The position numbers were made by a program, and so were the translations under genes. Shown piece after piece: positions 15,742 through 18,700 of a stretch of 64,000 bases of DNA. The DNA comes from Brooklawnia cerclae. GTDB lineage: Bacteria; Actinomycetota; Actinomycetes; Propionibacteriales; Propionibacteriaceae. The stretch lies in assembly GCF_011758645.1 (NCBI RefSeq), contig NZ_JAAMOZ010000001.1, positions 1 through 64,000 of the forward strand. The letters run 5' to 3'. How positions within the stretch are numbered: position 1 is the first letter of the stretch; every line of letters starts with the position of its first letter. The notes beneath the pieces were generated by a model. The model had not been told where the DNA came from, ran no database searches, and worked only from the letters and a program-made list of their open reading frames with translations.

Positions 15742-18700
15742 ATGAGCGAGAGCGTCAAGCAGGCGTCCGGGCAGTACCGTGCGGTGCCCGCGCAGATCGA
15801 CCTGGCGGCCATGGACCACCAGGTCCTCGGGCTCTGGGCCCGCCACGACACGTTCAACCGCAGCTGGCAGGCCACCCGCGACGGCCGGTCGTGGACCTTC
15901 TTCGAGGGTCCGCCCACAGCGAACGGCCATCCTGGCACCCACCACATCGAGGCTCGCGTCTTCAAGGACGTCTTCCCGCGGTTCAAGACCATGCAAGGAC
16001 GCCGCGTCGACCGCAAGGCCGGTTGGGACTGCCACGGTCTGCCCGTCGAACTCGCCGTCGAGCAGGAACTCGGCATCGATCACAAGAGCGAGATCGAGGC
16101 CTTCGGCATCGAGAAGTTCAACGAACTGTGCCGCACCTCGGTCACCCGGTACGTGGACGAGTTCACCGAACTCACCCGCCGCATGGGCTACTGGGTGAAC
16201 CTCGACGACGCCTACTGGACGATGGACCCGCACTACGTCGAATCCGAGTGGTGGGCGCTGAAGAAGATCTTCGACGCGGGCCTCCTCGTCGAGGACCACC
16301 GCGTCGCCCCGTACTGCCCTCGCGACGAGACCACTCTGTCGGACCACGAGGTCGCCCAGGGCTACGAGGACGTCACCGACCCGTCGGTATATGTGAGGTT
16401 TCCGCTGACCAGCGGCCCATGGGCGGGCGCGTCCCTGCTCGTGTGGACGACGACCCCGTGGACGCTGGTCAGCAACACCGCCGTGGCAGTTCACCCCGAC
16501 GTCACCTACGTGCGGGTTCGCCCTTCGACAAGCTCAGGGAGCCCTTCGACAGGCTCAGGGGACGTTGCGACAGGCTCAGGGGGCCCTTCGACAGGCTCAG
16601 GGGGCGTTGCGACAGGCTCAGGGAGCGTTGCGGGGGGCGAACTCGTCGTCGCCGAGCCGCTGTTCGCGTCCCTGCTGGGGGCCACCGCGGACGACGAGCC
16701 CGCCTGGGAGATCGTCGACGCCGTCCAGGGGCGTGACATGGAGCGCTGGGACTACCAGCGTCCCTTCGAGCTCGTGCAGTTCGAACACAAGGCCAACTAC
16801 GTCGTCCTGGCCGACTACGTCACCACGGAGGACGGCACCGGCCTGGTGCACCAGGCTCCCGCCTTCGGCGCCGACGACCTGGCGGTCTGCCGTGCCTACG
16901 GCCTCGAGATGGTCAATCCGATCCGCAAGGACGGCACGTTCTCGCCCGAGGTCGGCATCGTCGGCGGCATGTTCTTCAAGAGCGCCGACAAGCCCCTCAT
17001 GGACGACCTCACCGCCCGCGGCCTGATGTGGCGGGTCCTGCCCTACCAGCACTCCTACCCGCATTGCTGGCGTTGCCACACTCCGTTGATCTACTACGCC
17101 CAGCCTTCCTGGTACATCCGCACCACGCAGATCAAGGACGCGCTGCTGCGTGAGAACGAGGCGACGGCCTGGTACCCCGACAACATCAAGCACGGGCGCT
17201 ACGGCGACTGGCTCAGCAACAACATCGACTGGGCGCTGTCGCGATCGCGGTACTGGGGCACCCCGCTGCCGATCTGGCGCAACGACGTCGACCCGTCGAA
17301 TATGGTGTGCGTCGGTTCGCGCGACGAACTCGGCAGGCTCGCGGGCAAGGACCTTTCCGATCTCGACCCGCATCGTCCCTTCGTGGACGACATCACCTTC
17401 ACCATCGACGGCACCCCGGGCACCTACCGGCGCGTCCCCGAGGTGATCGACGCATGGTTCGACTCCGGTTCGATGCCGTTCGCGCAATGGGGTTACCCGT
17501 ACGTGGAGGGGTCGAAGGAGAAGTTCGAGAAGCACTACCCGGCCGACTTCATCTGCGAGGCCATCGACCAGACCCGCGGCTGGTTCTACACGCTCATGGC
17601 CGTGGGCACGCTGGTGTTCGACCAGTCGTCCTACCGCAACGTGCTGTGCCTGGGGCACATCCTGGCCGAGGACGGCCGCAAGATGTCCAAGCACCTGGGC
17701 AACATCCTGCTGCCGATCCCACTGATGGAGGAGCACGGCGCCGACGCGGTGCGCTGGTTCATGGCCTGCTCGGGCTCACCGTGGTCGGCCCGGCGCGTGG
17801 GGCACACCGCTCTCCAGGAGACCGTCCGCAAGGTGATGCTCACCTACTGGAACACCGTCGCCTTCCAGAGCCTGTACGCGAGGGCCAACGGCTGGCGTCC
17901 CGAGGGCACGCCCCCGCCGGTCGCCGACCGGCATGTGCTCGACCGGTGGCTGACCTCGGCCATCCAGCAGTTGATCGTCGGGGTGACCTCCGACCTGGAG
18001 AAGTTCGACACCCAGCACGCGGGCGGGCTCATCCAGGCGTTCGTCGACGAGCTGTCGAACTGGTATGTGCGGCGCAGCCGGCGCAGGTTCTGGGACGGCG
18101 ACCCGTCGGCGCTGTGGACCCTGCACGAGACGCTGGAACAGCTCACGCGGCTCATGGCCCCGCTGACGCCTTTCATCACCGAACGCGTGTGGCAGGACCT
18201 GTTCGTCCCTACGAACCCGGATGGCCCTGATTCGGTGCACCTGACCACCTGGCCGGTCGCCGACGAGTCACTGATCGACGCGAAGCTCGGCGAGTCGATG
18301 GAACTTGCCCGCAGGCTGGTCGAGCTGGGACGCGCAGCACGCGCCGAAGCCAAGGTGAAGACGCGTCAGCCGTTGTCGAGGGCTCTTGTCGGGTCCGCGG
18401 CCCGGGCACAGCTGGACGACGAACTGGTCGGCGAGATCACTGCCGAGCTCAACGTCGGAGCGGTCGACGCGTTCACCGCTGCCGGCGACGTCGTCGACTA
18501 CACGGCCAAGGCCAACTTCCGGGCGCTCGGCAAGCGGTACGGCAAACAGACCCCGGTGGTGGCGGCAGCCATCGCAGCCGCGGACGCCGCGATGCTGAGC
18601 TCGGAGCTGGCCTCGTCGGGACAGGTGTCCATCGATGTCGAGGGAGTCGGCGAGGTGGCGCTGCGGCCCGAGGACGTCTTCATCACCGAACGGCCCCGTG

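Follow-up and report, generated by a model that had tools for sequence, protein, structure and literature searches.

The window analyzed here, 64,000 nucleotides of a Brooklawnia cerclae contig, contains the isoleucyl-tRNA synthetase gene, ileS, which carries an in-frame array of a 21-bp unit, together with three further sites at which the same repeat occurs.

15736..19020, plus strand: ileS, isoleucyl-tRNA synthetase (IleRS), 1,094 amino acids, the only IleRS found in the genome
16521..16625, plus strand: five tandem 21-bp REP units within ileS, in frame, net gain of 35 residues
16521..16541, plus strand: unit 1, CCCTTCGACAAGCTCAGGGAG, CCC/GGG stem intact
16542..16583, plus strand: units 2 and 3, forming one 42-bp block; unit 3 starts within the CGTT tail of unit 2
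16584..16625, plus strand: units 4 and 5, a near-copy of units 2 and 3 (40/42 identical), internal duplication
16626..16632, plus strand: CGTTGCG, part of a next unit (tail)
33887..34190, both orientations: cluster of 9 copies (at most one mismatch), not called coding; a low-GC3 ORF spans it
57610..57664, plus strand: two copies 42 bp apart, upstream of a minus-strand solute-binding protein gene
61738..61958, both orientations: cluster of 7 copies, with no overlapping ORF of at least 90 amino acids

The 1,094-residue ORF reaches equivalog level for IleRS, scoring 862 bits against TIGR00392 (cutoff, 621.4), and its protein contains what we take to be the KMSK and editing-domain motifs. When the ileS protein was compared with its own genome, the remaining matches were to distant synthetase paralogues (29 to 32% identity) or were confined to the repeat peptide, with no second IleRS among them. 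Directly upstream of the gene, at 15600-15720, lies AACAAGGGTGGTACCGCGG, which to our eye resembles a T-box motif; a search of positions 15200-15800 gave no Rfam match at the gathering score. Residues 66 to 70 of the protein read PGTHH, which corresponds to the class I HXGH motif in its GXHH form, and PGTHH is also found in the majority consensus of the 25 aligned relatives. In the available part of one report, the GXHH form in IleRS2 is linked to natural mupirocin hyper-resistance (PMC10485003).

Tandem Repeats Finder placed the array at 16526-16632, with a period of 21 bp and 5.1 copies, and also reported a 42-bp period. Units 1, 2, and 4 open with CCCTTCGACARGCTCAGGG, and units 3 and 5 open with CGTTGCGACAGGCTCAGGG; the latter two begin inside a CGTT-like tail and have CGTTGCG in place of CCCTTCG, such that the exact core TTCGACARGCTCA is present in just three of the five units. 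Only 2 of 42 bases distinguish units 2 and 3 from units 4 and 5, indicating that the array contains an internal 42-bp duplication. The encoded peptide is RPSTSSGSPSTGSGDVATGSGGPSTGSGGVATGSGSVAGG. A preliminary description of this DNA had recorded five in-frame 21-bp copies as residues 261 to 295; the array and its frame were as described, but comparison with sister proteins placed the net insert at approximately residues 263 to 297. It had also spoken of a flexible PSTGSGG-like heptad. Unit 1 encodes PSTSSGS, and the other heptads have the forms PSTGSG(x) and VATGSG(x). The flexibility agrees with an AlphaFold2 model built from a 25-sequence alignment (mean pLDDT, 87.5; pTM, 0.78). In that model, pLDDT falls below 50 at residues 267 to 299, and strands flank this segment at residues 257 to 263 and 303 to 306. 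From the model, the insert is thus expected to be disordered and to extend as a loop from a beta-hairpin tip in the editing domain, which we take to be the domain named CP1.

The genome contains 559 copies of the core TTCGACARGCTCA (287 + 272), against 2 copies of a reversed control and approximately 0.09 predicted from base composition; every one of the seven sister genomes has between 0 and 2. At 33.9, 57.6, and 61.7 kb, the clusters contain this core too, as the preliminary description had asserted. The full palindrome CCCTTCGACARGCTCAGGG is present in 188 copies in the B. cerclae genome and in 25 of 117 family genomes (own genome included), representing 9 of 29 genera, and 8 of these 25 carry more than 100 copies. 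Its distribution is patchy, several members of carrier genera having none. Among the papers listed by searches of the open-licence literature, none dealt with this repeat in Propionibacteriaceae; an earlier report on IleRS itself could escape such searches.

To sample the repeat in its own genome, we used 44 stretches seeded from plus-strand sites among the core matches listed and then from 21-bp tandems; they held 66 clusters and 358 copies with at most one mismatch, including 288 of the 559 exact cores. By a codon-based test, 60 of the 66 clusters received no coding call, 5 were called as coding straight through the repeat, and 1 lay in the same frame with a stop. The repeat is therefore, as is characteristic of REPs, present in high copy number and mostly outside genes. 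The ORF that runs through the copies at 57610..57664 is probably an N-terminal extension only.

In 37 of the clusters not called coding, from stretches seeded from the core matches listed (L088 left out), 24 of 66 same-strand neighbors were spaced at 21 bp, the commonest distance, and 9 of 66 at 42 bp. A 21-bp spacing is thus usual for the repeat in this genome and preserves the reading frame by coincidence. That the unit length is a multiple of three is correct, as had been pointed out earlier, but a coding adaptation need not follow: for this genome such an adaptation is unneeded, since clusters not called coding share the spacing, and elsewhere the spacing is rare, accounting for 3 of 59 neighbors in the other genomes sampled, where the commonest spacing was 36 bp (7 cases). 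A rival idea is that ileS carries a contingency locus, retained under selection, in which slippage alters the number of units and so adjusts the editing or the expression of IleRS. The tandem 21/42-bp structure with its internal duplication and the position of the array in the editing domain would both suit such a locus, but longer 21-bp arrays outside called coding sequence exist elsewhere in the genome, so that the length of the array needs no selection on IleRS. We regard this explanation as very unlikely.

The repeat is an imperfect palindrome with compensatory changes in its stem. Among 247 distinct exact copies from the B. cerclae genome, stem pairs 1 to 3 were Watson-Crick in 90, 97, and 94% of cases, compared with means of 50, 49, and 77% in a shuffle control that ignores the relatedness of the copies. 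The pairs seen were TA and CG at the first position, CG and GC at the second, and CG and, less often, GC at the third, and the occurrence of two pair types at each position implies that pairing is preserved even as the bases themselves vary. In 118 copies from the other genomes sampled, the corresponding figures were 98, 92, and 89% versus shuffle means of 95, 65, and 74%; the first pair is nearly invariant there, so only pairs 2 and 3 are informative. Downstream of the repeat, in 263 distinct copies from the B. cerclae genome, position +6 was C in 98%, followed by G (76%), T (63%), and T (65%). A fixed GTAG or CGTC tag was absent from these 263 copies, CGTC being found at +6 in 14 of them. 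The repeat is REP-like: three outer stem pairs enclose TTCGACARGCTCA, and a CGTT-like tail comes next.

Each folded alone, units 1, 2, and 3 of ileS did no better than shuffled sequences; strong folding of single units is unsupported for these three, and the case for a hairpin therefore rests on covariation. One proposal is that the array acts in ileS as an RNA or DNA structure (an mRNA hairpin, or a gyrase or pausing site) and not through its peptide. Stem covariation across the family speaks for it, and such action has been proposed for REPs elsewhere, according to the available part of PMC3733652. Against it, the arms are mismatched (CGT/GGG) in two of the five ileS units, and the folded array is not clearly beyond shuffles, either as DNA (z = −0.29) or as RNA (z = −1.55, with 16 of 200 shuffles as good). 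We consider a structural role of this kind highly improbable.

The composition of the array shows that it is derived from the genomic repeat at the DNA level. It holds three exact 19-mers of the genomic palindrome, and its codons are atypical for ileS: threonine is encoded by ACA in 5 of 5 array codons, compared with 1 of 69 elsewhere in the gene (Fisher P = 3.7e-7), and serine by TCA in 5 of 11, compared with 2 of 57 (P = 8e-4). The 35 residues are missing from the ileS proteins of all seven other genomes of the genus (7/7), two of which, G001 and G007, are marked as 6% and 8% contaminated, and both flanks align; the empty site is known from proteins at most 84% identical to the B. cerclae IleRS over an aligned segment. 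Among 41 named ileS loci (one of which, L039, is probably the same record as sister genome G005), the insert residues were present in none of the 40 that cover the loop, L079 being without coverage. From the 24 other family genomes that carry the repeat, 20 were examined, the 4 omitted holding one copy each; ileS was readable in 19, and no repeat core was found at the site. The alignment with relatives, which the preliminary description had named as the comparison that might refute it, thus went in favor of a genomic repeat lying in frame inside ileS, the core being abundant in the genome and the insert missing from the IleRS of relatives.

Small, unrelated length changes occur at the same turn in a few IleRS proteins (L044, L135, and L144), implying that the hairpin turn accepts changes in length. 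Together with the linker-like character of the peptide, they could be taken to favor a Gly/Ser linker that lengthened at the protein level within ileS and came to resemble the genomic repeat by convergence. The atypical Thr and Ser codons and the exact 19-mers rule against this origin, which we find barely credible. The reading of the array as an inserted genomic repeat is right in kind; a neutral role for the insert, a repeat that is still mobile, and a copy number that varies between strains, which the preliminary description also raised, are proposals that go beyond it.

Similar arrays lie in other genes. An AAA+ ATPase gene of the same genome (L085) has an in-frame array, and all seven sister orthologues read (7/7) have no core. 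In a CobB-CobC fusion (L117, G000:C3:26000-33000), the array makes up a linker of approximately 100 residues in which VVPELVEG readings occur alongside VSTGSTG readings; no core was found in the five fused sister proteins read (5/5), and the other two sisters gave no strong match for CobB. A large polyketide synthase ORF (L106/L118, G000:C1:1331000-1349000) has an in-frame array between two domains, ahead of the dehydratase domain, with 11 copies in both orientations at spacings of 39, 45, and 21, all multiples of three. A PdxR/MocR-type regulator of the same genome (L088) has an in-frame array at its C terminus. In other genera, copies were read in HglS (L139 by domain scan, L141 by likeness), a 5-oxoprolinase/urea amidolyase-family protein (L182), an O6-methylguanine-DNA methyltransferase (L195), an ABC ATPase (L157), and an acyl-CoA synthetase (L190). 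The orthologue comparison covered ileS, the AAA+ gene, and the CobB-CobC fusion. The two HglS (2-oxoadipate dioxygenase/decarboxylase) genes, L139 in genome G063 and L141 in genome G090, from two species of one genus, have PSTGSGS residues at apparently the same site and of unequal length, a possible natural difference in unit number. Repeats can be misjoined, but with an intact frame, exactly five units, and similar in-frame arrays in several genes of the same assembly, an assembly or sequencing artifact in ileS can be set aside as next to negligible.

The in-gene arrays are mostly read in the S-T-G-S phase, and those of the polyketide synthase and the CobB-CobC fusion mix it with EPVE or ELVE. 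An exclusive STGS frame is ruled out, because single copies give RQAQ (L157 and L193) or EPVEG (L190), and L182 gives both EPVE and STSS. A preference for the S-T-G-S phase is suggested but unmeasured, since the peptide searches used that phase; L107, L108, L117-L123, L147, L174, L175, and L195 were picked through S-T-G-S peptides or whole IleRS, which biases their frame, and L195 is also among the carriers from the palindrome search. The codon-based test called coding straight through the repeat in 5 of 66 clusters from the B. cerclae genome and in 8 of 66 from other genomes. Three of the former five (L093, L111, and L119) are single one-mismatch copies that fall within ordinary protein sequence and appear to be coincidental; among the latter eight, frame had guided the selection of L174 and L175, and L203 might represent a spurious start region. 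The test also overlooked in-gene arrays supported otherwise (L117, L118, the C terminus of L088, and L195). Most of a bacterial genome is coding, and the small number of through-coding clusters would accordingly imply strong removal of insertions in genes. The survivors suggest that in-gene insertions are kept in loops, linkers, and tails, often in a linker-like frame.

How the repeat moves was approached through candidate enzymes. No match to Y1_Tnp (PF01797), which we take to be the RAYT domain, was found in the B. cerclae genome, which gives no support to a RAYT as the mobilizer there. Y1_Tnp was detected in 2 of 40 family genomes (own genome included), G070 and G015, and as both carry the repeat, a RAYT may play a role elsewhere in the family. 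Because no mobilizing enzyme was found, insertion, as opposed to local birth of the repeat, is something that we infer; an enzyme acting in trans, now or in the past, would account for it. A separate observation concerns a composite element of approximately 115 bp, consisting of two inverted REP copies with different arms (L080, L084, L091, L096, L098, L099, L100, L101, and L103) and which recurs in tandem every 113 bp in L096 and L100. Its better copies are bordered by terminal inverted repeats, TAGGGAAACGCTGATCAAYG, and end in TA. TA at element ends is associated with the IS630/mariner family, and the element looks like a MITE, perhaps of the IS630/mariner kind. Among 42 sites of the AACGCTGATCAAYG terminal repeats, judged by spacing alone, no pair framed a transposase-sized gene.

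Taken together, these results make it very probable that the array originated from a REP-like repeat that expanded in this Propionibacteriaceae lineage, entered the hairpin turn of ileS, was lengthened in tandem, and has been kept by tolerance. In the order of events that we envisage, a REP-like palindromic element would have multiplied in the lineage, a single copy or short tandem would have entered the beta-hairpin turn of the CP1 editing domain, and the array would then have grown by 21- and 42-bp tandem duplication, presumably by slippage. It would persist because a 21-bp unit leaves the frame intact, because no stop arises in the strand and phase used, which read as a Ser/Thr/Gly-rich linker, and because the hairpin tip tolerates additional residues. 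A bolder extension, that a REP family lacking its own RAYT moves through the Propionibacteriaceae and donates S/T/G linkers and that a strain-variable number of IleRS units tunes editing and thereby the translation error rate, strikes us as a long shot.

Three known systems invite comparison. REPINs and BIMEs, which are associated with RAYT transposases, are inverted REP pairs. Like them, the present repeat forms inverted pairs, 43 bp apart, in 11 of the 66 clusters from the B. cerclae genome; unlike them, it is found in a genome without a Y1_Tnp gene, and its copies in ileS are direct. Rickettsia palindromic elements (RPEs; Ogata et al. 2000, 2002) are palindromes lying in frame in genes of known function (PMC10969869, PMC3733652), with a length of approximately 150 bp (PMC10969869), as given in the available parts of these papers. 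Both systems share the in-frame insertion of a palindrome into known genes, and the trait that marks RPEs, an in-frame insert in a conserved gene whose orthologues are without it, is seen in ileS, the AAA+ gene, and the CobB-CobC fusion; the ileS insert is a 21-bp tandem whereas an RPE is approximately 150 bp.

The third system, the GTAG- and CGTC-tagged REPs, was the subject of a 2013 study, reportedly by Di Nocera et al. In the available part of that study, they are short, high-copy-number, mainly intergenic palindromes, some of which lie in frame within genes, including tRNA synthetase genes of X. oryzae, E. lithoralis, and S. alaskensis (PMC3733652). The arrays within genes encode 43 to 82 amino acids, neutrality in linkers and loops has been proposed, and the CGTC REPs seem to be without a dedicated transposase (PMC3733652). 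Actinobacteria are outside the five phyla given there for the CGTC repeats, and neither "Actinobacteria" nor "Propionibacterium" occurs in the main text (PMC3733652). The ileS repeat likewise belongs to a short, high-copy-number, mostly intergenic palindrome found in frame in a tRNA synthetase gene; it differs in the CGTT-like tail seen in its own genome and in the prominence of head-to-tail 21-bp arrays. That paper had thus already described in-frame REPs in genes, tRNA synthetase genes included, and put forward the idea that they may be neutral when they lie in a loop or linker (PMC3733652). The present case contributes an orthologue-controlled example of a multiplying palindrome tolerated in an essential enzyme encoded by a single gene, alongside parallel cases elsewhere in the genome, and it adds to the known picture the Propionibacteriaceae and a CGTT-tailed REP without a RAYT in most of the carriers tested.
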